A DNA stretch of 40,351 nucleotides from Porphyromonas sp. (lineage in GTDB: Bacteria > Bacteroidota > Bacteroidia > Bacteroidales > Porphyromonadaceae): NCBI GenBank assembly GCA_030529525.1, contig JAUMWS010000003.1, positions 1-40,351 of the forward strand. Reading direction: 5' to 3'. Below are positions 322 through 40,150 of the stretch, piece by piece. Numbering within the stretch: the first letter of the stretch is position 1; the number at the start of each line of letters is the position of its first letter. The translations under genes and the position numbers were made by a program. The notes under the pieces were generated by a model that saw nothing but the letters and a program-made list of their open reading frames with translations, had not been told where the DNA came from and ran no database searches.

Positions 322-2448
322 ATGATGATGGACAAAATATCCACATATTCAGAAGCAATCACATATCTCTTCAATAGCTTTCCCATGTTTCAGAACGTGG
401 GCGGGAAGGCTTATAAGCCGGGCTTGGATACGGTCTTAAAGCTTCTTGAAAAGCTTGGTAATCCTCATCAAAAACTGCGTACCATTCATGTGGCAGGTAC
501 CAACGGCAAGGGTTCTACCTCTTCTCTTCTGGCATCTGTACTGCATGAAAGTGGGCTGAAAGTGGGTCTGTTTACCTCTCCTCACCTTGTGGACTTTTCC
601 GAACGAATTCGCGTGGATGGGAAAGTGATAGAAGAGGAGTTTGTTGTAGACTTTTGCAATTTGGTCAGACCTTGGTGCGAAGAGTTGAAATTATCTCCAT
701 CCTTTTTTGAACTAACCACCGCCATGGCTTTTGCCTACTATCTCGATAAAAAGGTGGATATTGCCGTCATAGAGGTTGGAATGGGTGGTCGCTTGGACAG
801 TACCAATGTAATCACTCCGATTTTGAGCATTATCACCAATGTCAGCCTTGATCATACGGCATACTTGGGAGGTACTTTGGCAGAGATAGCAAGCGAAAAA
901 GCAGGTATTATAAAGCCCGGAGTGCCCGTGGTATTGGGAAATTATGAAGAGTCGGATGTACTCAGAGCCGTGGAGAAGAAAGCCAAAGAGGAGAAAGCTC
1001 CGCTTCATCTGTGCAGAAGGGAGGTTGTTTTACGCTCTTATGAAGAGAATGCGGATGGGAGCCATGGCTTGGAAAGCTCTCTCTTCGGACCGCTACATCT
1101 TATATTGAGAGGCCGTCATCAGCTGGAAAATGCCACTACTGTCCTGACAGCTTTAGAGCTACTGAAAACTCGTTTAGAGGGTAAGAGGATAGAGGCGGAA
1201 GCTGTGAGAAGAGGTTTTTTGAACGTCGAAAATATTGGTCTTGCCGGTCGGATGCAGAAGCTGAGCGACATGCCGGATCTCTACATAGATACCGGACACA
1301 ACGTGGGAGCGTGGAATCATCTAAGCCCCTACTTGGAGTCCGTTTTGGATAAAGGAAAAGAGCTTCATATCGTCATCGGGATGGCAGAAGACAAAGATGT
1401 ATCTGCCGTCTTTGAGATGTTGCCCAAACGAGCACGTTATTATATCACTCAAAGCAGGGGAGAGCGGGCTTGTGCAGCAGAAAAATTATCAGCATTGGCA
1501 CACTCCAATGGGCTTAATCATATAGTCGTAAAGCCTGTATGGGAAGCATTGGAGCAGGCATACGCTTCTGCTATGAGAGCTCAGGAGAAGTCCGTAGTGC
1601 TTGTTTGCGGAAGTAACTTTGTGGTTGCGGAAGTGTTGGAAAAGGAGTTATCCCTTCTGACGTCTAAGTGGAAAGCTCCGAACGGAACATCCTTAGCCGG
1701 ACGTTTTTTCGTTACCGTGGATAGTGGAAACAGTGCTTTGAAGGCTACTCTATTCCATGGTCGAGTAGCTCTTTGGCAGCAATCTTTCTCTTCGGTGGAC
1801 GAGCTTTTGTTGCCACTGCAATCTGTTTTAGAAGAACTGGCTATACCGATGGATAAGGTTGTGGGCATGGTCATATCTACATCTGTGCCTTGTTCGGAAT
1901 TGGAAACCAAGCTGAATGGAATAGGACTGAGAACCATCCGTTTCGATCTCGATACCCTCAAACTTCCTTTCGGTATCGCCTACAAGTCGCCTCAGACACT
2001 GGGACAGGATAGGATTGCAGCATGTGTGGGAGCTTCGATTTCTGCCGGAAAGCGAGACTTTTTGGTAGTGGATTGTGGGACAGCTATCACACTCGATTTG
2101 GTACAAGATGGAGCTTACAGGGGAGGCGTTATAGCTCCGGGATTGGATATGAGGCTGAAAGCACTTCATGATTATACGCACAGATTGCCGTTGGTTCCCA
2201 AAAATCTTTCTACTGAAACTTTAATAGGGCAAAATACGGAAGAGTGTGTCTATCATGGTACAGTCTCATCTGCACGCCTCGAAGTGGCAGCATGGATAGA
2301 AGAAATCTCGGAAAAGATCACTCCGGTTTTGGTTTATTTAACGGGAGGAGACCGTATTTATTTTGAAACAATAGCGAAAAATACCATCTTTGCAGATAGT
2401 TGTCTTGTTAGAACAGGACTAAATGAGATATTGATAACGAATGTATAG
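322..2448 (+). CDS. folC-coaX: Bifunctional folylpolyglutamate synthase / type III pantothenate kinase fusion
   Basis: The single 708-residue frame holds two complete enzymes. Residues 1 to about 445 are FolC/MurC-type ligase, which adds glutamate to dihydropteroate or folate. The visible motifs are the P-loop GTNGKGST (59-66), SPHLVDFSERI (86-96) and EVGMGGRLDSTN (151-162). After a short linker, residues 461-708 (248 residues, normal CoaX size) are type III pantothenate kinase, the first step of CoA synthesis. It has the phosphate-binding DSGNS (467-471), PQTLGQDR (557-564), DCGTAITLD (584-592) and GGVIAPG (601-607). No ATG lies at the junction, so both halves are probably made as one chain. 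The start is one of three consecutive ATGs. The 3' end overlaps the next gene by 8 bases. FolC and CoaX are normally separate proteins; the joint function is inferred from intact motifs, not shown. Confidence 0.92.
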   Translation: MMMDKISTYSEAITYLFNSFPMFQNVGGKAYKPGLDTVLKLLEKLGNPHQKLRTIHVAGTNGKGSTSSLLASVLHESGLKVGLFTSPHLVDFSERIRVDGKVIEEEFVVDFCNLVRPWCEELKLSPSFFELTTAMAFAYYLDKKVDIAVIEVGMGGRLDSTNVITPILSIITNVSLDHTAYLGGTLAEIASEKAGIIKPGVPVVLGNYEESDVLRAVEKKAKEEKAPLHLCRREVVLRSYEENADGSHGLESSLFGPLHLILRGRHQLENATTVLTALELLKTRLEGKRIEAEAVRRGFLNVENIGLAGRMQKLSDMPDLYIDTGHNVGAWNHLSPYLESVLDKGKELHIVIGMAEDKDVSAVFEMLPKRARYYITQSRGERACAAEKLSALAHSNGLNHIVVKPVWEALEQAYASAMRAQEKSVVLVCGSNFVVAEVLEKELSLLTSKWKAPNGTSLAGRFFVTVDSGNSALKATLFHGRVALWQQSFSSVDELLLPLQSVLEELAIPMDKVVGMVISTSVPCSELETKLNGIGLRTIRFDLDTLKLPFGIAYKSPQTLGQDRIAACVGASISAGKRDFLVVDCGTAITLDLVQDGAYRGGVIAPGLDMRLKALHDYTHRLPLVPKNLSTETLIGQNTEECVYHGTVSSARLEVAAWIEEISEKITPVLVYLTGGDRIYFETIAKNTIFADSCLVRTGLNEILITNV

Positions 2449-3727
2449 AAAGAGAGCAATAAGATTTATTGCAATATTTGCAGTAACAATAAGTTTTTTC
2501 GTGGGAGTAGCGAACGCTCAAAGCATTGAAACATCGCCCCTCTCTCGGTATGGTTACGGATCTTTGATAGAGGCTTCTCCAATCTCTTATAGAGGTATGG
2601 GAGGTGTCGGTATAGGGTTGCGTCAAAATAATATGATCAACTTTAAAAATCCGGCTGCCTTTTCTGTCGTGGATTCTCTCTCCTTTGTTTTTGATATAGC
2701 ACTTACTTCAAACTATAAGATGCTAAGGGAAAACGAACTGAAGAAGAATACATTGCAGGCGAATATAGACTATCTTGCGTTTCAAATGTCTCTTTTCAAC
2801 TCCGTGGGGTTGAGCTTTGGAGTGATACCCTATTCAAGAGTAGGATATGTAGCACAGTCTTCAAGTGAGATAGAAGGATTCCCCAATGCTGTTTATAAAC
2901 AAACTTTCAAGGGGAGCGGATCTCTTCAGAATGCTTACATGGGAGTGGGCATTAAGCTTTTTGAGAAGTTGTCTTTGGGTGCGAAGGTCAATTATCTTTT
3001 TGGATCTACCATACATGAGGTAACTTCCGTCCCTAATTCTACGCTGATCAATACCCGTTATGTGAGAGAAACATGGCGTACATCTACTTGGTCTGCCACA
3101 TTCGGGGCACAGTTTCATCATCGCACCAAAGATTGGGAGTCTGTGTTGGGTGCAACACTCTCTCCTTCTCTCGTGCATAGACCAAAGATGTCTCTGTTTG
3201 AAGATAGAGACTTCGGAAAGGTGCTCACTCCCGATGTTTATACAAAGGAGGAGACTTATATCGGAAAACTTCCGCTTGAAGTGGGAATTGGAGCAAGCTT
3301 GAACTATCGGAATAAACTTTTGACAGCTTTTGACGTCAAATATACAGACTGGGAAAGCGTTCCCAATCTTTTCGAACGGCAGAATGTATCATATAAAAAT
3401 GCTTGGCATGTTGCACTTGGTGCATCTTACCGGACAAACCCTCTGTCTCGATCCTATTCGGATAATATCGTGTATAGAGCAGGAGTTAACTTTGCAACGC
3501 CACATATAGAGCACCATAAATGGGGACACTCTTCTACTTTGGGCATTTCGCTCGGTCTTGGACTCCCTATCTATGTGAATGATGAGAGGGCTTCTCTACT
3601 TAATCTTAGCTTGGAATATGTAAAGAGCCTGAATGACAAGAGAGCTATCTTAAAGGAAGATGCAATAAAGCTCTCTGTGGGTATAAACTTTAGTGAGACT
3701 TGGTTCCGCAAACTCAAGATATATTAA
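2441..3727 (+). CDS. Outer-membrane beta-barrel protein next to coaX
   Basis: This 428-residue protein has a clear signal peptide (basic MYRKR, a hydrophobic stretch to residue 24, cleavage likely after VANA-Q). The mature part consists of alternating short beta-type segments rich in Gly, Tyr and Ser and ends in an aromatic-rich strand (KLKIY). This is typical of a FadL/OmpP1-like outer-membrane barrel. The N-terminal words SPLSRYGYG and YRGMGGVGIG fit the conserved Bacteroidetes barrel family found beside coaX. The substrate is unknown. The start overlaps the folC-coaX stop by 8 bases, so translation is probably coupled. A shorter start is unlikely because the signal peptide would be lost. 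Confidence 0.8.
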   Translation: MYRKRAIRFIAIFAVTISFFVGVANAQSIETSPLSRYGYGSLIEASPISYRGMGGVGIGLRQNNMINFKNPAAFSVVDSLSFVFDIALTSNYKMLRENELKKNTLQANIDYLAFQMSLFNSVGLSFGVIPYSRVGYVAQSSSEIEGFPNAVYKQTFKGSGSLQNAYMGVGIKLFEKLSLGAKVNYLFGSTIHEVTSVPNSTLINTRYVRETWRTSTWSATFGAQFHHRTKDWESVLGATLSPSLVHRPKMSLFEDRDFGKVLTPDVYTKEETYIGKLPLEVGIGASLNYRNKLLTAFDVKYTDWESVPNLFERQNVSYKNAWHVALGASYRTNPLSRSYSDNIVYRAGVNFATPHIEHHKWGHSSTLGISLGLGLPIYVNDERASLLNLSLEYVKSLNDKRAILKEDAIKLSVGINFSETWFRKLKIY

Positions 3728-3795: not shown

Positions 3796-5172
3796 ATGAA
3801 AAAAACACTACTTTTCACCATTGCCATGATTGCAATGAGTGCATGGACTTCTAAGGCTAATAATATTGTTTCTTCAATTGCTGACTCAGCACCTAATGCA
3901 GCAATTGATACTACAGAATGCCGCAAGAATGTTTCTTACTTTAAGATCCATGCTAAGACGAACAACTTTCAGGATGCTTACGATTTCTGGTTGAAAGTTT
4001 ACAAGAACTGCCCGGACATGACTAAGGACATATACATCGTAGGTCCTCAGATCTTGAAGTGGAAAATAGCAGATGCAAAGACACAGGAAGAGAAGACTAA
4101 GTACATCAACCAACTTATGGAAGTGTACGATACAAGAATGAAGTATTTTGCAAATGATCCACAGTTCGGTCCCGACTATATCTTAGCTTCAAAGGTTATG
4201 GACTACATCGAGACTATGGCTGAGAAGGCAGACTACGAAATGATTTATAATTGGCTCAAGGATATCGTAGCGGAGAAAAAAGAGAAGACAGATTATATGG
4301 CATTGAACTTTTATCTCTATTCTTCAATGGTAAAAGTTATTAAGAATCCTGACCATAAGGAACAATACATAAATGAGTATTTGACTATCTCCAAATATTA
4401 TGAAGATGCTCTTAAAAGAGCTCATGAGAAGGGGGACATGGACAGAGTAAGACTCTATACAGACCTTAAAACAGCCGCTGATACTCAATTTGCATCAAGT
4501 GGTGCTGCAAGCTGCGATATGCTCCAAAAAATATATGGAAGCAAAATAGAGGAGAATAAGGATAACAAGGAGTACTTGGATAACGTTATAGCTCTTCTTC
4601 GTAGAGTGAACTGTTTGGAAAGCGATATCTACTTCCGTGCTTCGGAGTTCGCTTATGCTATATCTCCTTCGGCTGAAGCTGCTTTAGGACTTGCTAAGAG
4701 AGCACACCTGAACAAGGATAGAGCTAGAGCCAACCAGCTGTTTGAAGAAGCAGCAGCTCTTTCTACTTCTTCGGATCAAAGAGCAGACATATATTATATA
4801 ATAGCTCAACTTGCTTACGAACAAGGTCAGTACTCTCGTGCAAGACAGTATGCAAATAAGGCAATGGATGAAAAGTCCGGCTTTGGATCTCCATTGATCT
4901 TGATTGCAAATGCTTATGCTGCTACGGCTAATTCTATTTTCCCTGATGATGCAGTGAAGGCTCGTATCGTTTACTGTCTTGCTGTGGATAAGCTTGAAAG
5001 AGCAAGATCAATAGACCCATCTGTATCAGCAGAAGCAGGAAGACTGATTGCAAGATATAGATCTTACTTCCCAAGTAAGGAAGATGTCTTTATGCACCCT
5101 GACCTAAAGGAAGGACAAAGCATAGCTATCGGTGGATGGATAGGTGAGACTACTACTATCCGTGTCAAGTAA
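3796..5172 (+). CDS. Secreted tetratricopeptide-repeat protein
   Basis: This 458-residue protein has a signal peptide (MKKTLLFTIAMIAMSAWTSKA). The first half is helical with many Lys, Asp and Tyr residues. From about 270 to 400 there are clear TPR-like helix pairs (for example ALGLAKRAHLNKDRARANQL and AQLAYEQGQYSRARQYANKA). TPR arrays bind other proteins, so a periplasmic scaffold role in envelope assembly is inferred. It sits between a barrel gene (68 bases upstream) and lptC (8 bases downstream), an arrangement I recall from other Bacteroidales. No catalytic motif is visible. The ATG follows a purine-rich AAAAAGAACATAAG stretch. Confidence 0.8.
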   Translation: MKKTLLFTIAMIAMSAWTSKANNIVSSIADSAPNAAIDTTECRKNVSYFKIHAKTNNFQDAYDFWLKVYKNCPDMTKDIYIVGPQILKWKIADAKTQEEKTKYINQLMEVYDTRMKYFANDPQFGPDYILASKVMDYIETMAEKADYEMIYNWLKDIVAEKKEKTDYMALNFYLYSSMVKVIKNPDHKEQYINEYLTISKYYEDALKRAHEKGDMDRVRLYTDLKTAADTQFASSGAASCDMLQKIYGSKIEENKDNKEYLDNVIALLRRVNCLESDIYFRASEFAYAISPSAEAALGLAKRAHLNKDRARANQLFEEAAALSTSSDQRADIYYIIAQLAYEQGQYSRARQYANKAMDEKSGFGSPLILIANAYAATANSIFPDDAVKARIVYCLAVDKLERARSIDPSVSAEAGRLIARYRSYFPSKEDVFMHPDLKEGQSIAIGGWIGETTTIRVK

Positions 5173-5180
5173 GAGCGAAC

Positions 5181-5906
5181 GTGTACAACGATAAAGATTA
5201 TAACCAAGGTCGAACGACCGCAATAAATAGAATAACACAACCTCAAACATGGGGTTGTGTTATTGTTGCATTATATCTGCTTTCTGCATTAACTTCGTGC
5301 GGCGGCGTAAAAACCGATGCAATAAAAGACTTTTCCGATAGCATCTCTTATGCAGTTTACACTCGTGGTGTAGAGACTTTAATTTCGGATTCGGGAGTTA
5401 CAAAGTATAAGTTGAAAGCTGACGAGTGGTACATTTTTAGTAATGATACATTGAATCAGTGGAGTTTCCCGAAAGGGATATATCTTGAGCAGTTCGATAC
5501 TTTATTTGTCCCACAAGCGACTGTGCGTTCCGATTCTGCTTTCTATCATGTACCAAGAGAAACTTGGGAATTGATAGGCAATGTGGAGATCATTAATCTT
5601 TTAGGAGATAGATTTACTACCAACAGAATGTTTTGGAATAGGACAAAACAGCTTATCTATTCGGATGAATATGTAAGAGTTGACCTTGCTAATGGGAATC
5701 AGATAGAAGGGCTTGAAGGTTTTGAAAGCAATGAAAATATGACCCGATTTGAGTTTAAAAAATCAATGGCCAACTTCTTGCTTCAAGACGGCGAGATGGT
5801 TAAAAACTCACCAGCTCCATCAAGTGTAGCCCCGACGGACTCAATTCCGAAGAAAGAAGAGCGAAAAATTAAGCACAAGTCCGATATTAATACAACGACT
5901 AACTAA
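5181..5906 (+). CDS. lptC: LPS export periplasmic protein LptC-like lipoprotein
   Basis: This 241-residue protein matches the size and layout of LptC, which receives lipopolysaccharide from the LptBFG ABC transporter and passes it to LptA. After a 25-residue polar N-terminus comes a hydrophobic segment ending in the lipobox SALTSC (Cys40), so it looks like a lipoprotein. The family's beta-jellyroll region follows, with words such as LKADEWYIF, FPKGIYLEQFD and ETWELIGNVEIINLLGDRF. The C-terminal 40 residues are low-complexity and lysine-rich. The only plausible start is GTG at 5181, because no in-frame ATG precedes the membrane segment. It begins 8 bases after the TPR gene and is followed 20 bases later by the CNNM/CBS gene. 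The long n-region before the lipobox is unusual. Confidence 0.8.
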   Translation: MYNDKDYNQGRTTAINRITQPQTWGCVIVALYLLSALTSCGGVKTDAIKDFSDSISYAVYTRGVETLISDSGVTKYKLKADEWYIFSNDTLNQWSFPKGIYLEQFDTLFVPQATVRSDSAFYHVPRETWELIGNVEIINLLGDRFTTNRMFWNRTKQLIYSDEYVRVDLANGNQIEGLEGFESNENMTRFEFKKSMANFLLQDGEMVKNSPAPSSVAPTDSIPKKEERKIKHKSDINTTTN

Positions 5907-7268: not shown

Positions 7269-9422
7269 ATGGCAACATTAGAGAAAATCAGAAGTAAGTA
7301 CGCAGTCTTGCTCGTTGTATTATTGGGTTTGGCTATGCTTGCGTTTGTTCTTGGAGACCTTTTTAGAGGAGGTTCTACTTTGTTTCAAGACAGCCAGATG
7401 GTTGTATTGAGTGTAAATGGAGAGAATGTCAAAATTCAAGATTTTGAGAAGCGAGTAGAAGAAACCACTCAGAACTATAAGATGTTCAGTGGAAACAGAG
7501 AACTTGCAGAGGCAGATTACCAACAGATTCGCAACCAAGTTTACTCTACAATTATCATGGAGAGTGTACTCAATGGCGAAGCTGAAAAGATTGGTCTCAC
7601 AATCTCTCCGGAGGAAGTTTATGACCTTGTTCAAGGTGAAAACATCTCTCCTCTTATTCTTCAATCTCCTATGTTCAAGAACGAACAAGGCAATTTTGAC
7701 AGAGAAGGATTCATCGAATTCAGAAAGTCTATCGGAGAGAAGCAAATCAACGAAGCATCTCCGGAAGTTCGTCAACAATTGCTACAGTACCGTGCTTATT
7801 GGCTCTCTATCGAAAATCAGGTAAAGGCATTCCGTATGAACGAAAAGTACGATGCTCTCTTGACCAAAGGAATTGTTGCAAATAAATTGGATATTGCCAC
7901 TGCTGCTACAGAAGAGAAAGAGATGGCAACCATTGCTTACGTGGCACAAAATACTTTTGCAATGCCCGACTCTCTTGTTACTGTTTCTGATTCAGAGATG
8001 AAAGAGTACTATAACACTCATAAGGAGATGTTTAAAGTGCCGGCATATAGAGTTGTAGACGTGATTTACTCAACCCTTGTTCCAAGTGAAAAAGATAAGG
8101 AAGACACAAAGAAAGATGTCGAAGATGCTGCAGCTGAAATGGCTCAGGGAGACAACTACAACGATATTATCTCTTCATATTCAGATATGAAGTATATCGA
8201 CTCTTACTTGTCTGAAGAACTCCTTCGTTCGGAATACTTCTACACCGGAATGATGGATCAGATAAAGTCTGTAGAAGTAGGTACTGTATTGCCGATGCAT
8301 CAAAGTGGTAACACATATGCGGTAGCTAAGTTGGTAGGAAAGAAAGTTGCTCCGGACTCAATATTTATCCGTCACATTCTACAACCTGCTACGGCAGAAG
8401 GAACAAAGACAATCGATAGCCTTTTGACTGTTTTGGGTTCAACTCCAACTGCTTTTGCCGAACTTGCAGCACAATTCTCTCAAGATCCGGGCTCTAAAGA
8501 CAATGCCGGCGAACTTGGTTGGGTTACAGAAATACAAGCTCTACAATCATTCGGAGAGGAGTTCCGCGATGCTCTTTTCTCTGCTCAGATGAACAAGCCA
8601 TTCAAGTTTACTTCTCGTTTTGGCGAACACATCTTGCTTGTAGACAAGGCTACTGCTCCGGTTAATAAGTACAAAGTGGCATACATGGCTAAGGGCGTAG
8701 AACCGGGTACAGAGACTTATACTAAGGCTTATAACGATATCAGCTCATTCAAGGCTGCTTACAACAAGGCTGAAGGTATAGACACAGCTGCTATCAATAA
8801 GGGTTATCAAGTACTTTATAACATGGAAGTGTATCCATCTTCTTCTGCTATCTCTCAAAATATCCAAGGTAGTAGAGAGTTGGTACGCTGGGCATTCAAC
8901 AATCCTAAGGGATCTGTTTCCGACATTAAAGACTACGAAGATAAGTTTGTAATGGCTGTTGTTCGTAAGGAGATACCTCAAGGCTACAAGCCATTCGAAG
9001 AGTCTAAAGAAGAGATACGTCCGGTATTGTCGAATGAAAAGAAAGTAGAGAAGTTGTTTGCTCAGTTGAAGTCTCAAAATCCTCAGTCTTTGGAAGAGTT
9101 TGCAGTAGCCAACTCACTTCCGACAGACACACTAAGACACTTGGGCTTTGCCAGCAACAGAATCGACGGTGTCGGTTTCGAGCCTGTACTTAACGCTGTA
9201 GCGGCTTCTGCTCCTCTGAATACAGTGCTACCTGTAAAGGGTATGAATGGAGTTTATGTCGTGAAGGTTGCAGAGAGAGTTCCTAATACCAATTCTGCTC
9301 TAACCAGTGCAAATGCAGGCGATCTTATTCAGGCAAATCTTCAAGCTAAGGTAAGAATGCAAGCGATAAGACTACTTATGTCCAAAGTAGATGTTGTAGA
9401 CAATAGAGTCCGTTTCTATTAA
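7269..9422 (+). CDS. ppiD: PpiD-type periplasmic peptidyl-prolyl isomerase / foldase
   Basis: This 717-residue membrane-anchored chaperone has one N-terminal transmembrane helix (about residues 12-30, VLLVVLLGLAMLAFVLGDLF). A SurA/PpiD-like chaperone region follows to about 220. A parvulin rotamase domain lies at about 364-463, with IFIRHIL, FAELAAQFSQDPGSKDNAGELGWV and FGEHILLVDKA. A second, degenerate parvulin-like section extends toward the C-terminus (about 600-700). The family helps newly exported outer-membrane proteins fold, which fits the barrel and LPS-transport genes upstream. The length is slightly above E. coli PpiD (623), as is usual in Bacteroidetes. A terminator follows 26 bases after the stop. 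Confidence 0.92.
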   Translation: MATLEKIRSKYAVLLVVLLGLAMLAFVLGDLFRGGSTLFQDSQMVVLSVNGENVKIQDFEKRVEETTQNYKMFSGNRELAEADYQQIRNQVYSTIIMESVLNGEAEKIGLTISPEEVYDLVQGENISPLILQSPMFKNEQGNFDREGFIEFRKSIGEKQINEASPEVRQQLLQYRAYWLSIENQVKAFRMNEKYDALLTKGIVANKLDIATAATEEKEMATIAYVAQNTFAMPDSLVTVSDSEMKEYYNTHKEMFKVPAYRVVDVIYSTLVPSEKDKEDTKKDVEDAAAEMAQGDNYNDIISSYSDMKYIDSYLSEELLRSEYFYTGMMDQIKSVEVGTVLPMHQSGNTYAVAKLVGKKVAPDSIFIRHILQPATAEGTKTIDSLLTVLGSTPTAFAELAAQFSQDPGSKDNAGELGWVTEIQALQSFGEEFRDALFSAQMNKPFKFTSRFGEHILLVDKATAPVNKYKVAYMAKGVEPGTETYTKAYNDISSFKAAYNKAEGIDTAAINKGYQVLYNMEVYPSSSAISQNIQGSRELVRWAFNNPKGSVSDIKDYEDKFVMAVVRKEIPQGYKPFEESKEEIRPVLSNEKKVEKLFAQLKSQNPQSLEEFAVANSLPTDTLRHLGFASNRIDGVGFEPVLNAVAASAPLNTVLPVKGMNGVYVVKVAERVPNTNSALTSANAGDLIQANLQAKVRMQAIRLLMSKVDVVDNRVRFY

Positions 9423-10640: not shown

Positions 10641-10646
10641 AAATGC

Positions 10647-10654
10647 TATCTTTG
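10647..10654 (+). promoter_or_regulatory. -7 element of the C26-M19 gene, fixing its start
   Basis: TATCTTTG is a perfect TAnnTTTG box. It overlaps the first codons of the longest possible reading frame (from 10643), so that ATG cannot be the normal start. The next in-frame ATG at 10694 lies about 40 bases downstream, a normal leader length. Confidence 0.6.
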
Positions 10655-10693
10655 CAGATAGAGTATAATCAATGCAGATTTCAATCACTCAAT

Positions 10694-12517
10694 ATGAAAA
10701 ACAATAAAGGAATAGAGTTTGGAAATCTTTCCGCTTTGCAAGAAAAAGTAAGAAAGCTCACCATCGGTTCGGAAGATAAAAAACCTCTGATTGGTATCAG
10801 TGCCAATCATGCCGGAGTAGATCAAGAGTTGAGAGATAACTATATTAAAGCCATCATCCGAAGTGGTGGGGCTCCTTATATCATACCTTACTCGAACGAT
10901 ACGGAGGCTACGGTTCAGGCCGTTGAGCGGTGCCATGGTATCCTCGTTACGGGTGGAGCAGATGCTCATCCGCTGTGGTACGGAGAAGAACCACACCCCA
11001 AGCTTGGAGCTGCAGACTGGGTAAAAGATGGGTTTGATATGGCTGTTATCATAACGGCTTTGGAGCGCGGTATCCCTCTGCTCGGAATTTGTAGAGGAAT
11101 GCAGCTGCTGAACGTCGTTCTTGGTGGATCTATAATACAGGATATTCCGTCTGCAAGGAAAGATGAAGAGGGGGTACTTCATATACAAACATCGCATCGG
11201 AGCGAGCCTTGGCACACTGTCAGGATAGAGCGAAACAGCAGGCTTTTCTCCATATTCGGAGAGCAGGAGAACATTTATGTCAATTCGTTTCATCATCAGG
11301 CCGTTTGCAAGCCGGGAAAGAGCGTCTATGTCTCTGCCACGGCAAGTGATGGCATCATAGAAGCGATAGATACCTATCCGGAACATAATGCGATAGGAGT
11401 ACAGTGGCATCCGGAAGCAATGGTCTCGGAAGGAGACTCCGAGCAGCAGTCCGCAATATTTTCACATCTGGTCAAAGAGGCCACTCTCTATGCCGAAGCT
11501 CGTACTTTTCATGGCAAGCACCTTACTCTCGATTCGCATACGGATACACCGATGCTTTTTAAGGATGATGGGCCATACGACCTGACCAAGTTGAGCGATG
11601 AAGCCTTGGTGGATCTGCCCAAAATGAGGGCTGGTAATCTGGACGCCGTGGTTATGGCAGCTTATCTGCCACAAGGAGAAATCTCTCCGGATGCTCACAG
11701 AAAAGCGTACGAATATGCTTTGGAACGCATTCGAAAGTTGCGCACGGCAGTGAAGAGTAGCGGTGGTGCCGCTCGTCTCGCATTCTCGTCCAAAGATCTT
11801 TATGTAAACAAGGAGAACAATCGCAAGAGCATTATTCTTGGGATAGAAAACGGATATGCGCTTGGCGGAGATCCGGATAAGGTGGAAGAGTTTGCAAAGA
11901 TGGGGATTAAGTATATCACACTTTGCCACAATGGGGATAATGCTATCTGCGACAGTGCTTCACGAAGCAGCCAGACGCATAACGGGCTTAGTCCGCTTGG
12001 AAGAGAGATTGTAAGACAGATGAATACTTGGGGTGTTATGGTGGATGTCTCTCATGCCGGTATCCGCACCATAGAAGATGTGTTGGAGGTGAGTGCATCT
12101 CCGATTATTGCATCCCATTCGGGGGCTCGGGCAATCTGTGATCATCCGAGAAACTTGTACGATGAGCAGATTCGTGCCATAGCAGAGAATGGAGGTGTGG
12201 TACAGGTTTGCATGTACAAAGGGTTTGTATATGAGCCATCGGAAGAAGCTTCTCTGCTTCATGTGATAGACCATATCGAACATATTCGAGACCTTGTCGG
12301 GATAGACCATGTAGGTATCGGGTCTGACTTCGATGGAGATGGCGAGGTAATCGGCTGTAGGGATGCTTCTGCAATGAAAAGACTGACCGTGGAGATGCTC
12401 CGTAGAGGCTTCTCCACAGAAGAGCTTATGAAAGTGTGGGGACACAACTTCCTGAGAGTCATGAAAGATGTACAGATGAAAGGATACAAGATCAGACAGG
12501 AGAAAGTGGTAAGATAA
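10694..12517 (+). CDS. Class I amidotransferase-like hydrolase (C26) fused to membrane dipeptidase (M19)
   Basis: From ATG 10694 the product is 607 residues with two hydrolase domains. Residues about 30-265 are peptidase C26, related to gamma-glutamyl-GABA hydrolase PuuD. The triad is Cys133 (in GICRGMQ), His239 and Glu241 (in QWHPEAM). Residues about 275-600 are an M19 renal-type dipeptidase with zinc ligands His282 and Asp284 (SHTDT), the bridging Glu385 (GIENGYA), later His residues (VDVSHAG, IASHSGA) and the GIGSDFDGDG motif. C26 cleaves gamma-glutamyl amides and M19 cleaves dipeptides. Joint breakdown of gamma-glutamyl peptides such as glutathione fragments is an inference. No signal peptide is seen, so it is probably cytoplasmic. 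The longer frame from 10643 is rejected because a promoter box lies inside it. Confidence 0.88.
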   Translation: MKNNKGIEFGNLSALQEKVRKLTIGSEDKKPLIGISANHAGVDQELRDNYIKAIIRSGGAPYIIPYSNDTEATVQAVERCHGILVTGGADAHPLWYGEEPHPKLGAADWVKDGFDMAVIITALERGIPLLGICRGMQLLNVVLGGSIIQDIPSARKDEEGVLHIQTSHRSEPWHTVRIERNSRLFSIFGEQENIYVNSFHHQAVCKPGKSVYVSATASDGIIEAIDTYPEHNAIGVQWHPEAMVSEGDSEQQSAIFSHLVKEATLYAEARTFHGKHLTLDSHTDTPMLFKDDGPYDLTKLSDEALVDLPKMRAGNLDAVVMAAYLPQGEISPDAHRKAYEYALERIRKLRTAVKSSGGAARLAFSSKDLYVNKENNRKSIILGIENGYALGGDPDKVEEFAKMGIKYITLCHNGDNAICDSASRSSQTHNGLSPLGREIVRQMNTWGVMVDVSHAGIRTIEDVLEVSASPIIASHSGARAICDHPRNLYDEQIRAIAENGGVVQVCMYKGFVYEPSEEASLLHVIDHIEHIRDLVGIDHVGIGSDFDGDGEVIGCRDASAMKRLTVEMLRRGFSTEELMKVWGHNFLRVMKDVQMKGYKIRQEKVVR

Positions 12518-17227: not shown

Positions 17228-18334
17228 CTACGCACCTTTGCTAAGGAAGTAGAAGACAGCTATCAGTAGCAGCATTCCCAGTATAAAAAAGAATATCTTG
17301 ACAAAGCTTTTAGGATAGTTTCCTGCCACTTCTCCTGTGCGTCCGTTTACGACGAACTGATAAAGCTTGCCATTATACCTGAAAGCACTTATCCACAAGG
17401 GCAGAAGCATGAGCTTGAACATGACGTCATTATAATCTATATCCATGGAGTGGATTTGCTGACGATCGCCTCCGATATCTCTCCGAACCAGTTGTTTAAG
17501 CTCGGCCTCCATCTTCATCCTTGCTTCCGGCATGGTTTCTCGGAAATCTTGTTGATAGATCTCTGTGATAAATCCCGCAACATACTCATGGCTATATGGC
17601 AGACAGTTTTTAGTATCCCAATGGGTAAGGTCATTTACCAGACTTTTAGGCAGCGTATGCGAAGCCGGCACCAGAACATCGTCAAAGCTATGGCTGATGT
17701 GTCCGGAAGTGTAATACCAGTCCGTTACGGTTCTGTGTCGTGTCTGTCCTCTTTCATCTGTCTCTACCACCGTACGTGTTATTCCTCTCTCTCCGACGTA
17801 CTGAGTCTCGGTCTCTGCATCGTAGCTCCAGAACGGAAGATAAATCCCTTTGAAGGCATCGACTGCTATATCTCCTCTTTTGACCTTATTGGGCAAAAAC
17901 CAACGAGAGCTTATCCATTTCTTAAAACTCTGTCGGCTCCCTTTTTCTGTAATGTAAAAAGGGAGGACATAGTTTGGAATCCACGTGGATTGAAGGCTTG
18001 CTTCACTTAGAATAAGAGGTGTGCTGCAAAAGGCGCAGCTCATAGCGCTTGTATTTGCAGGCATTGAGGTATTGGCTCCGCACTGTCGGCACTTTACCTG
18101 TCTTACTTTCAGGAGACTTCCCGTACCGTTTTCTTCTTCCTTTTTTCCTGCATCGAAGTGAGTGGCCCAGTATTCAAAATCGTTCTCTACAATTTTTCCC
18201 GGAGAGAGGTTCAGAGCGTGAGTAAAACCGCAATTCAGACATTTGAGAGACTGACTCTCCGGGTCGAAACACGTATAGCTGCCGCAGCTTTCGCATTTTG
18301 TCTGTAGAGCGTCATCTATTTCGAGTTCTACCAT
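17228..18334 (-). CDS. Double zinc-ribbon protein with a C-terminal membrane helix (YdjG-like)
   Basis: This 368-residue protein has two N-terminal zinc ribbons: Cys14/Cys17 with Cys32/Cys35 (CESC and CLNC), and Cys82/Cys85 with Cys100/Cys103 (CRQC and CAFC). A central domain of about 200 residues follows, with YLPFWSYDAETETQYVGERG and a conserved SFDDVLVPASH. A single transmembrane helix (about 345-365, IFFFILGMLLLIAVFYFL) precedes a 3-residue tail. This layout resembles Bacillus YdjG-type proteins, which pair with an SPFH protein in phage-shock-like envelope stress loci. The SPFH gene is directly upstream (39 bases), which supports the pairing. No PspA homologue is in the window. Many databases mislabel such proteins as primosome or replication factors because of the ribbons. 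Confidence 0.75.
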   Translation of the reverse strand: MVELEIDDALQTKCESCGSYTCFDPESQSLKCLNCGFTHALNLSPGKIVENDFEYWATHFDAGKKEEENGTGSLLKVRQVKCRQCGANTSMPANTSAMSCAFCSTPLILSEASLQSTWIPNYVLPFYITEKGSRQSFKKWISSRWFLPNKVKRGDIAVDAFKGIYLPFWSYDAETETQYVGERGITRTVVETDERGQTRHRTVTDWYYTSGHISHSFDDVLVPASHTLPKSLVNDLTHWDTKNCLPYSHEYVAGFITEIYQQDFRETMPEARMKMEAELKQLVRRDIGGDRQQIHSMDIDYNDVMFKLMLLPLWISAFRYNGKLYQFVVNGRTGEVAGNYPKSFVKIFFFILGMLLLIAVFYFLSKGA

Positions 18335-34823: not shown

Positions 34824-34882
34824 CAAAATAGAGAGCAGGCATTTTGAGAAGGGGAGGTCGGTATGGAATATATAAAAATGAA
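34824..34882 (+). repeat. Dispersed intergenic repeat, copy 2
   Basis: It shares the 14-base block CAAAATAGAGAGCA (34824-34837) and the 19-base block ATGGAATATATAAAAATGA (34863-34881) with 110-166. The second block contains the ATG at 34863, which makes that ATG unlikely to be a true gene start. Confidence 0.6.
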
Positions 34883-34918
34883 GTTTGCCATATCGGACAG
34901 ATTAAGCATTATTGGGGC

Positions 34919-34949
34919 TTGCGTATCTATGTTAAAATTGCGTTCTTTG
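34919..34949 (+). promoter_or_regulatory. Putative promoter of the TonB-dependent receptor
   Basis: TTG (34919-34921), a 20-base spacer, then GTTCTTTG (34942-34949), which matches TAnnTTTG except at its first two bases. It lies 36 bases before ATG 34986 and inside the longest possible frame. Confidence 0.45.
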
Positions 34950-34985
34950 CACTATAGCAAAGGTCTAAAAAGACCGGATATTGAA

Positions 34986-37439
34986 ATGAACAGATCTATG
35001 AAATATATTCTGGGTGTTGTTGCTTTGCTTTTTTGCTTTCAGCCACTATTGTCACAAGAGGGTAAAAGTAGGGTGAAGATACCTAAAGAGACGAAAGACA
35101 CAGGCTTCAAAAATCCTCTTTCCATGATGGAGGTTCCTTCTTTACTATCGGCATCTCCGGATTCATTCGCGTTGGGGTCTTCGCGTATTATGAAGTCGTT
35201 TTCGTTTCAGGCGAGGCAGTACAGTGTCGCAAATATTCCTCTTCTCTTTAATGGAGTGGAAGTCAATGATGCTTGTAGCGGAGAACAACCCTGGTATCTT
35301 TGGGCTGGAATGAACGATGCCACCGGTAACGAACGCACAGGATGGGGGCTATCTTCCACACACGATACTATGGGAGCTCTTGGCGGAAGTAGAAGCCTTA
35401 CGGTGAAAGCATCAGCACTGCGGAAATCTAAACGTTTAAGCTACTCTTTTAGTAACGATCTGCATACGCATCGTATAATGGGACACTATTCGTCCGGAAA
35501 GCTTAGCAATGGTTGCTATCTCTCTTTTACCGGTAGCGTGAGAGGAGGAGAAGAGGGATATGTCAGGGGAACTCACTCTCTCGGAGAGAGTTTTTTGCTT
35601 GCACTTTCTAAAGATATCAATAGCAGACACACTCTTTCGCTTACAGGGTTTGCTGCCCCGGTAGAGCAGGGCATCGCCTCTATCTCTTCCGAAATGGCTT
35701 ATCAGGCAGCCGGAAATCATTACTTCAACAGAGGTGTGGGAACGGATGGCGGAAAGTTACGGAATGCTCATATTCTTAGGCGAATGGAACCTGTGGTAAC
35801 ATTAAGCCATGATTGGAAGATTTCGCCCACATCCGCTCTATCCTCTACTCTTTGGTATAGAGATGGTGGAAGCACTGTTTCAGAATTGAAATGGAGGACA
35901 GATAATCCTTATCCCGACTTTTTCGGTCTCTTTCCTCCCTTTTCGGCAAATCCTCCGGATAAGCATAGAATGTTCGTAAATTTCGATGAAATGAGACATC
36001 GGAATATGAATCCTGTCGGAGAGACGCCGAAAGATGAAGCAGGAAATCCTGTAGCTTCTGGAAACAGAGCCGAGTATATCGTAGCCGGAAGGAGTAGAAC
36101 ACAGAGAGAGCTTGCCTTGAGTTCGGTCATAAATACCTCTCTGTCCAATACGCTGAGGCTGGATGGAGGTGTCTCCGTTTCCGGTAACAGAAGCAGATAT
36201 TATAATCGAATTTTAGACCTTTTAGGGGGCGACTATTGGTATGATGTAGATAGCCATTTAAGCGGGAGGGAGGCTTTTAGTGATTTGGATAATCCTTATC
36301 GTATCGCTCGAAAAGGGGATAAGTTTGGTTATTTTTATGCTACACAACGTGTCCGGACTGCGCTTTGGGGACAACTCAGACACTCATCTCGAAGGTGGGA
36401 AAGTTTTGTTGCCGTAGAGATTGGTAGCAATCACCTTTTCAGAGAAGGCTTCATGAAAAATGGAGTACACGCTTCGGAAAGTAAGGGTAAGTCGGCTAAG
36501 TTGGATTACTTGACCTATAAAGTGAAAGGAGGTACGCAGTATAAAATAAATGGTCGTCACTACTTGGCTGCAAATTTCTATACTTCTCGTAAAGCCCCTC
36601 ACTCCGATATTGCCTTTGCATTGCCCGAAAATAGCAATAGGCTTACACCCGGTTTGGAAGCAGAAAAGAGCCTGTCCGGAGAGTTCTCTTATCTTCTTCG
36701 AAACGCTTTTGTAAAAGCGCGTGTAACCGGCTATTTTACTTGTATATGGGATAAAGGAAATAGGATCTCCTTTTACAATGCATCCCGAAATACGATAAAC
36801 CATTACCTCTTATCCGGCGTTTCCGAACAGTACATAGGAGTAGAAGCCGGTATAGAGCTTAAACTCTCTCCTACTGTAAGAGCTGTTTTGGTAGGAGCAG
36901 TCTCTGATAACAGCTATGCCGGTACTGCAACCTTATCTCATTTCTCTGATAATGTATTCGGAGTGATAGATAGCGATATAGTGGAGTGGCAGGGAAGAAA
37001 AATAGCAGGAGGACCTACCGAAATGGCTTCCGTTACTCTCTCCTATAACTCTCCTAAACAATGGTATGTTGAACTTTCAGCAAATTATGCAGGAAGAGCC
37101 TACACTCAGATCAATCCTACATTTTATACCGAAAGGCTCCGAACAACTCCGGGATTCAAGTCCGACTATGCTCTGCAAGAAGATTTAGGCAGGCATATTA
37201 CGCTTGATGCCAGAGTGGGATCCTCTTGGACAGTGGCAAAGAAGCATACATTATCTGTCAACTTGAGCGCATCCAATCTGCTTAATAATACCAATATCAG
37301 ACTGAGGGGATGGGAGCAGATGCCAAACAGAATGGATACATCGGGAGGCGGAAACGCTTCTCTGACCAAACCGGTAGAACAACGCTACTTGTATATGTAT
37401 GGTCTTACGTACTTTATTAACGCATCTTGGCGTTGGTAG
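34986..37439 (+). CDS. TonB-dependent receptor-like outer-membrane protein
   Basis: From ATG 34986 the product is 817 residues with a normal signal peptide (MNRSMKYILGVVALLFCFQPLLS-Q). The plug-like region (about 30-160) has NIPLLFNGVEVND, NERTGWGLSSTHDTMGALGGSRSLTVKAS, and a large barrel ends with a TYFINASWRW strand (aromatic last residue). There is no N-terminal carboxypeptidase-like domain and the usual plug motif for TonB receptors is degenerate. The upstream start at 34863 would add 41 residues that cover a dispersed repeat and a promoter-like box, so it is rejected. A BACON-nuclease gene follows after 46 bases. Transport of nuclease products is a plausible role, not demonstrated. Confidence 0.82.
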   Translation: MNRSMKYILGVVALLFCFQPLLSQEGKSRVKIPKETKDTGFKNPLSMMEVPSLLSASPDSFALGSSRIMKSFSFQARQYSVANIPLLFNGVEVNDACSGEQPWYLWAGMNDATGNERTGWGLSSTHDTMGALGGSRSLTVKASALRKSKRLSYSFSNDLHTHRIMGHYSSGKLSNGCYLSFTGSVRGGEEGYVRGTHSLGESFLLALSKDINSRHTLSLTGFAAPVEQGIASISSEMAYQAAGNHYFNRGVGTDGGKLRNAHILRRMEPVVTLSHDWKISPTSALSSTLWYRDGGSTVSELKWRTDNPYPDFFGLFPPFSANPPDKHRMFVNFDEMRHRNMNPVGETPKDEAGNPVASGNRAEYIVAGRSRTQRELALSSVINTSLSNTLRLDGGVSVSGNRSRYYNRILDLLGGDYWYDVDSHLSGREAFSDLDNPYRIARKGDKFGYFYATQRVRTALWGQLRHSSRRWESFVAVEIGSNHLFREGFMKNGVHASESKGKSAKLDYLTYKVKGGTQYKINGRHYLAANFYTSRKAPHSDIAFALPENSNRLTPGLEAEKSLSGEFSYLLRNAFVKARVTGYFTCIWDKGNRISFYNASRNTINHYLLSGVSEQYIGVEAGIELKLSPTVRAVLVGAVSDNSYAGTATLSHFSDNVFGVIDSDIVEWQGRKIAGGPTEMASVTLSYNSPKQWYVELSANYAGRAYTQINPTFYTERLRTTPGFKSDYALQEDLGRHITLDARVGSSWTVAKKHTLSVNLSASNLLNNTNIRLRGWEQMPNRMDTSGGGNASLTKPVEQRYLYMYGLTYFINASWRW

Positions 37440-38653: not shown

Positions 38654-40150
38654 ATGAGCGTTATACTCAAACAGAGTCTGCGGGGTACTGTTGTAACCTA
38701 TTTGGGAGCTTTCATCGGTTTCCTTACGACGTTCTTCATTACCGTTACCTATCTTACCGCCGAGGAGATAGGTCTCACTCGTGTTCTGTTTGAGGCTGCT
38801 CTATTGCTGAGTACATTTGCCATACTTGGAGTACATACCTCCTCCATAAGGTATTATCCCTACTTTAAAAGAGGAGATGGGTCAGAGAGGGGCTTTCTGC
38901 CTTTAATGCTACTGTTCCCTATATTGGGCGTAGCGATCTTCGGTTTCCTTTACTTCCTGTTGGAAACGCCCATCTCCTCCTATTTTTCCAAGAATTCTTC
39001 TCTATTTGTGCAGTATTACTACATGGTACTGCCCTTGATGCTCTTTTTGCTTTATCAGAATCTACTCGAAGTATATGCTTCCATAAAGCAAAAGATTGTA
39101 GTACCACGCTTTCATAAGGAGGTTACCCAACGCCTGCTGTTGATAGGTGTTTATGTTGGTTATGCCACATTCAATCTGACACTTGATGCCTTCATTTGGA
39201 TTTTTGTTGGTAGCTATGGGCTTGTGGCTCTGCTGCAATTCGGGTATGTTTTAAAGCTCTCTCCTCATGCTTTGAAAGAGAAGATTTCGTTTCCTGTAGA
39301 GCAAAAAAAAGATTTTTTCAACTACACGGCATTGGTTGTCCTCTCGGCATTGGGCGGAAGTATAGTCAGTCGTTTGGATATCTTTATGGTATCTGCCAAA
39401 ATGGGGCTGAACTATGCAGGGATATATACGATTGCTTTTTTCATCGTGGCGATAATAGAGATTCCGTCCCGTTCACTGCTTGCCATAACAGCCCCAATAG
39501 CATCCGAAGCGTTAAAGAATAAGGATATACAGAAGCTGCAAGACCTCTATAAGAAGGTCTCACTCTATCAACTTTTTGTCGGAGGATTTATATTTCTGTT
39601 GATTTGGGTCAATATAGACTTTATCTTTACCATCATTCCCAATTCCGAAATCTATTCGCAAGGAAAGTGGGTTGTCTTCTACTTAGGATTATCAAAGATT
39701 GTAGAGATCACTTTCAACTTTGGAAATTCCGTCATTCGATACTCTCGTTACTACTACTATACGATACTAATCACCTTTCTGCTCACGATACTTACGATCC
39801 TTACCAATAATTACTTCATTCCTCTCTTGGGGATGAAGGGGGCTTCCATAGCTACTCTCATTACCTGTCTTATCAGTTATACTATTTCTCAGATTATCAT
39901 AAAAATAAAGCTTCAAGTCTCTCCTTTCAGCAAGCGTTTCTATTTCTTGTTTGCCGTCATCTCTCTACTTCTTTTCTTGCAGATGCTATGGCCGGAGAAA
40001 AGACTAATTGCAGGTATTTGGTTCGATGCTATCCTTAAAAGTTTTATTTTTGTTGCTGTACCTATAGTTGCGTTACTCCGACTAAAAATGCTACCGGAAC
40101 TGTCTCAGTATATATCCGGTCTGTACAAAAAAATTAAGAATAGAGTATGA
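38654..40150 (+). CDS. Oligosaccharide flippase (Wzx-like, MOP superfamily)
   Basis: This 498-residue protein has about 12-14 transmembrane helices and the layout of polysaccharide flippases: an opening SLRGTVVTYLGAFIGFLTTFF, a mid-protein SRLDIFMVSAKMGLNYAGIYTIAFF, then LLAITAPIASEAL. It should move undecaprenyl-linked glycan units across the inner membrane for O-antigen, capsule or similar. It starts 16 bases after the nuclease and overlaps the next gene in ATGA, so it belongs to the same run or begins a glycan cluster that continues outside the window. Confidence 0.88.
   Translation: MSVILKQSLRGTVVTYLGAFIGFLTTFFITVTYLTAEEIGLTRVLFEAALLLSTFAILGVHTSSIRYYPYFKRGDGSERGFLPLMLLFPILGVAIFGFLYFLLETPISSYFSKNSSLFVQYYYMVLPLMLFLLYQNLLEVYASIKQKIVVPRFHKEVTQRLLLIGVYVGYATFNLTLDAFIWIFVGSYGLVALLQFGYVLKLSPHALKEKISFPVEQKKDFFNYTALVVLSALGGSIVSRLDIFMVSAKMGLNYAGIYTIAFFIVAIIEIPSRSLLAITAPIASEALKNKDIQKLQDLYKKVSLYQLFVGGFIFLLIWVNIDFIFTIIPNSEIYSQGKWVVFYLGLSKIVEITFNFGNSVIRYSRYYYYTILITFLLTILTILTNNYFIPLLGMKGASIATLITCLISYTISQIIIKIKLQVSPFSKRFYFLFAVISLLLFLQMLWPEKRLIAGIWFDAILKSFIFVAVPIVALLRLKMLPELSQYISGLYKKIKNRV

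Follow-up and report, generated by a model that had tools for sequence, protein, structure and literature searches.

The type I (CoaA) and type III (CoaX) pantothenate kinases carry out the same reaction; CoaX enzymes are dimers whose active site lies at the interface, and they are not known to undergo feedback inhibition by CoA. Where CoaX is fused to a biotin ligase, the type III pantothenate kinase is C-terminal and the ligase lies in front. Free-standing forms of both enzymes considered here are found in Bacteroidales: FolC (TIGR01499) as proteins of 431–442 aa that lack CoaX, and CoaX (PF03309/TIGR00671) as proteins of about 245 aa with their own start codon and no FolC in front. CoaX fusions as such are already known; NMB2075 of Neisseria meningitidis is annotated as a "Bifunctional biotin-[acetyl-CoA-carboxylase] ligase/pantothenate kinase" (PMC5383966).

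Here, we describe a gene of Porphyromonas sp. in which FolC and CoaX are joined in a single chain. The arrangement resembles NMB2075 in placing a C-terminal type III pantothenate kinase behind an unrelated ATP-dependent ligase; however, the partner is FolC rather than biotin ligase, the phylum is different, and the fusion is an independent one. It is FolC as a fusion partner of CoaX that appears to be new. Residues 1–440 match the free-standing FolC of Bacteroidales in domain content, motifs, and C-terminal end, and are 46–55% identical to those of the genus and family; the C-terminal half shares its family, its motifs, and bamG as a neighbor with free-standing CoaX. A search of open-access papers, including those on pantothenate kinase, folC, or coaX of Porphyromonas gingivalis, returned no report of a FolC-CoaX fusion, although this is weak evidence.

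Domain structure of the FolC-CoaX chain

Within the window (the whole stretch of DNA analyzed, 40,351 nucleotides), the fusion gene and the gene cluster that follows it are arranged as below.

322–2448, plus strand: folC::coaX fusion gene; 708 codons in a single open frame, ATG start, TAG stop
322–1641, plus strand: FolC half, dihydrofolate/folylpolyglutamate synthase; residues 1–440; TIGR01499; end placed at the end of lone FolC in relatives
1642–1704, plus strand: linker; residues about 441–461, without ATG; part of neither FolC nor CoaX
1705–2445, plus strand: CoaX half, type III pantothenate kinase; residues about 462–708; PF03309, TIGR00671; start placed at the Met of lone CoaX in the alignment
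2441–3727, plus strand: bamG, beta-barrel assembly component; NF053685, 297.7 bits (cut-off 250); first bases shared with the 3' end of the fusion gene
3796–5172, plus strand: conserved tetratricopeptide (TPR)-like protein of the same gene cluster; profile match and gene order
5181–5906, plus strand: lptC; PF06835, TIGR04409
5927–7195, plus strand: CNNM/CorC-type membrane protein (GldE-like); profile matches and gene order
7269–9422, plus strand: SurA/PpiD-like peptidyl-prolyl isomerase, last of the conserved cluster; profile match and gene order

In profile searches, TIGR01499 (folC) matched residues 35–440 at 379.8 bits (cut-off 162.65), while the CoaX half was matched by PF03309 over residues 465–652 (122.9 bits; cut-off 24.7) and by TIGR00671 over residues 464–702 (109.7 bits; cut-off 58.2). 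No biotin ligase family matched the chain in these searches; its N-terminal half is FolC. The motifs listed here, which we take to be those catalytic in the two families, are all intact. In the FolC half these are GTNGKGS at 59, TSPHLVDFSERIR at 85, EVGMGGRLDSTN at 151, SLDHT at 175, SEKAGIIKPG at 191, and DTGHN at 323, and they include the family's P-loop GTNGKGS, omega-loop TSPHL, EVGxGGRLDxTN, carbamylated-lysine region, and C-terminal DxGHN/DxAHN; lone FolC proteins carrying DTGHN are found in other Bacteroidales as well. The CoaX half carries DSGN at 467, GQDR at 561, DCGTA at 584, and THRLP at 619, corresponding to the DxGN, GxDR (with the catalytic Asp), DxGTA, and Thr of T-x-x-L-P of its family. 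The FolC half aligns to solved chains 1o5z, 1fgs, and 1w78, and the CoaX half to 2gtd, 3bex, and 3djc; none of these solved chains contains FolC and CoaX together. The frame, the profile matches, and the motif positions thus confirm the original prediction of two complete enzymes sharing one 708-residue frame, with their motifs intact and no ATG at the joint.

Conservation and distribution of the fusion

The same FolC-CoaX chain occurs in a second species of the genus (G008:C5:584940–587060), where it is 78% identical to the chain of the source genome (G000) and continuous through the linker, so that an in-frame stop, for which relatives were to be checked, is not present there. Identity is 81% for the FolC half and 74% for the CoaX half. 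With dS at about 1, dN/dS between the two species (NG86) is 0.10 for the FolC half and 0.19 for the CoaX half, showing purifying selection on both halves. That the fusion is an artefact of sequencing or assembly has a probability next to nil: nothing favors it beyond the fragmentation of the source assembly (137 contigs, 89% complete), and it is excluded by the presence of the same chain in the independent assembly of the second species (10 contigs, 99% complete).

No further FolC-CoaX chain was found among 61 relatives. Wider sampling, with 393 genomes drawn from the order and 395 from the phylum, likewise yielded none beyond these two species among the matches listed; the results cover the best ~150 matches each, in which a colinear fusion would be expected high in the ranking but a weak or split one may be missed. 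The best ~160 CoaX matches of the order all lie in open frames of 356 codons or fewer. Among the matches listed, FolC-CoaX is confined to two species of one genus. The fusion is thus real but modest, a lineage-specific feature limited to a small clade.

Several long FolC frames (G454, G623, G665, G381, G104, and G198) were considered as candidate fusions and rejected; none of them shows CoaX, and they resemble read-through or frames that happen to be open upstream or elsewhere. The long FolC frame of G552, another Bacteroidota genome, was also rejected as FolC-CoaX and reads instead as a FolC-RadC chain of 714 residues (UPF0758_N plus RadC JAB domain; L113, G552:C29, 2554–4695, plus strand). 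Because FolC is joined there to the unrelated RadC, this chain suggests that the C-terminus of FolC tolerates fusion.

Gene order and origin of the two halves

The fusion gene occupies the ancestral place of coaX before the bamG-TPR-lptC-gldE-surA cluster. In the sister genus (8 loci, L071–L078) and in three other families (L079–L081), bamG is immediately preceded by a lone coaX, and the TPR-like, lptC, gldE-like, and surA-like genes follow coaX-bamG in most of these loci. Since a lone coaX precedes bamG in all of these groups, the CoaX half appears to be in its ancestral position, with folC as a newcomer joined ahead of it. Elsewhere in the genus, the bamG-TPR-lptC-gldE block is kept without coaX, and a lone folC lies at another place.

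In no genome examined does an unfused folC lie directly before coaX, so the relocation of folC would have to come before any loss of its stop codon. The frames may have been joined by stop loss after relocation, or relocation itself may have created the fusion. The suggestion of a lineage-specific stop-codon loss that became fixed accordingly holds in part: the arrangement is lineage-specific, with two species among the matches listed, whereas stop loss is one possible route, for which no folC-coaX intermediate was seen among the genomes examined.

Pantothenate kinases across the genus

The genus was sampled by 12 genomes, comprising the two with the fusion, nine others that are well covered (G001–G007, G009, and G011), and G010, which is 53% complete. 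Neither a second PF03309 match nor a free-standing coaX was found in either fusion genome (G000, 89% complete; G008, 99% complete), and profile searches found no second folC in G000, leaving the N-terminal half of the fusion as the only FolC found. None of the ten non-fusion genomes, the 53% complete G010 among them, has a PF03309 match. A check of relatives for a separate coaX, proposed alongside the original prediction, thus found none in these ten genomes and a lone coaX before bamG in the sister genus; every sister-genus genome searched has a CoaX match, and none has a type I kinase over the cut-off.

The type I kinase profile TIGR00554 is matched in 9 of 9 well-covered non-fusion genomes of the genus (423–443 bits; cut-off 235). 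In the fusion genomes nothing exceeds this cut-off, the best scores being 53.5 bits (G000) and 55.8 bits (G008); the latter match is a uridine kinase, as is its PF00485 counterpart, and the former lies at the uridine-kinase-sized frame of G000. A search for the type II kinase (PF03630), run without a positive control, found no match in the genus. CoaBC, the downstream enzyme, is present in G000 (PF04127, 218.5 bits). CoaA takes the place of CoaX in the other members of the genus, but it has an unrelated fold (P-loop PRK family) and is encoded by a separate gene at a different locus. From these searches, the genus appears to be divided between two species with a FolC-fused type III kinase and others with a free-standing type I kinase. 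In a tree of BamG, TPR, and GldE proteins, the fusion pair falls apart from the other ten genomes, the clade of those ten having a support of 78; a single CoaX-to-CoaA swap within the genus would be the simplest reading, though not a proven one at this clade support.

The second fusion species also retains a broken piece of CoaA at a contig end (L108, G008:C1, about 109–470), with frame breaks; 32 residues of it are 72% identical to G011 CoaA, and 38 residues are 61% identical. The adjoining DNA (L108, 559–3703) is 81–86% identical to the neighborhood of CoaA in G011 (L064), whereas housekeeping proteins of the two genomes are only about 40–60% identical. Because this block is far closer to G011 than the housekeeping genes are, the remnant likely reflects arrival by (recent) transfer followed by decay, as would be expected were the fused CoaX sufficient. 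The remnant has no DNA match in G000.

Elsewhere in the order, one member of family f20 (G055:C56:73773–74690, L096) has CoaA and no PF03309 match among the matches listed. This genome suggests that type III kinases may have been exchanged for type I more than once, or that the exchange was spread by transfer.

Proposed function and alternative explanations

The best explanation for these data, to which we assign a rough probability of 0.82, is that the fusion encodes one bifunctional enzyme, that it is the only pantothenate kinase of its lineage, and that both activities are needed. The chain would consist of an N-terminal FolC adding glutamate to dihydropteroate and folates, a short linker, and a C-terminal type III pantothenate kinase phosphorylating pantothenate in the first step of CoA synthesis. 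In the ancestor of the species pair, folC would have been placed directly before the old coaX-bamG cluster and the frames joined; other species of the genus would have taken up the unrelated type I CoaA and lost CoaX. The fusion would have been kept since both activities are needed in a lineage without another pantothenate kinase. The two catalytic sites are probably independent; expression would be shared, as probably would the oligomeric state, given the dimeric nature of CoaX enzymes. Because no other kinase was found and CoaBC is present, the CoaX half most likely performs the first CoA step, and the fusion is most likely active and the sole pantothenate kinase of its genomes. A second kinase might still lie in the part missing from G000 (89% complete), although G008, at 99%, has none. 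We infer that the product stays uncleaved, has both activities, and is indispensable, and likewise in what order the evolutionary steps took place. The economical view is of a co-translated bifunctional enzyme that would have become fixed as both of its parts became indispensable.

The CoaX half might also, or only, be produced as a separate protein, through an internal GTG or TTG start or by cleavage in the linker. Residues 425–475 contain no Met codon, and the joint offers four weak start codons; GTG434 and GTG438 are common to both fusion species and could serve such a start in each, but the second species lacks TTG439 and GTG466. The linker, moreover, is 70% identical between the two species over residues 441–463, and its residues appear constrained (dN/dS of 0.22, from a small sample of 23 codons); together, these features make a separate CoaX product quite unlikely. 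Very improbable, too, is a CoaX half that is a decaying or non-catalytic appendage, with phosphopantothenate coming from another enzyme. Its dN/dS is about twice that of the FolC half, as decay might produce, yet the value points to purifying selection, the catalytic motifs are all intact in both species, and no other pantothenate kinase was found in either genome (89% and 99% complete).

A different reading is that the fusion exists for the sake of coupling, with folate polyglutamylation and CoA synthesis co-regulated or allosterically linked, as had been proposed from the sequence at the outset; no test lent this support. Conservation of the fusion over appreciable divergence and of the linker would be consistent with coupling. 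However, we know of no intermediate common to the folate and CoA pathways, so channelling is not expected; the arrangement is found in two species only, among the matches listed; FolC is fused to the unrelated RadC in G552; and the coaX of relatives adjoins bamG, not folate genes. Coupling as the reason for the fusion is therefore unlikely. It is doubtful that the previously undescribed FolC-CoaX chain is both the sole, essential pantothenate kinase of its clade and a physical link between folate and CoA supply, such as CoaX-driven dimerization that alters FolC.

The original prediction missed that searches of the genome yield no pantothenate kinase besides the fusion, and that the fusion marks a split within the genus. 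A single genus appears divided over which of two non-homologous enzymes starts CoA synthesis. If the bifunctional chain favored here is uncleaved and essential, two essential cofactor steps would depend on one gene; this would bear on gene-essentiality data, on automated annotation, where a gene name can easily omit one of the halves, and on the choice of pantothenate-kinase inhibitors in the genus.

Other features of the window

Three further frames of the window, at 34863–37439, 38654–40150, and 17228–18334 (858, 498, and 368 aa, respectively), have no Pfam match, and the 858-aa and 368-aa frames have no solved relative either. A second two-enzyme chain of 624 residues is encoded at 10643–12517 (plus strand), in which a class-I glutamine-amidotransferase/Peptidase_C26 domain (residues 49–258), of a family that includes gamma-glutamyl hydrolases, is followed by a Peptidase_M19 dipeptidase domain (residues 290–608).
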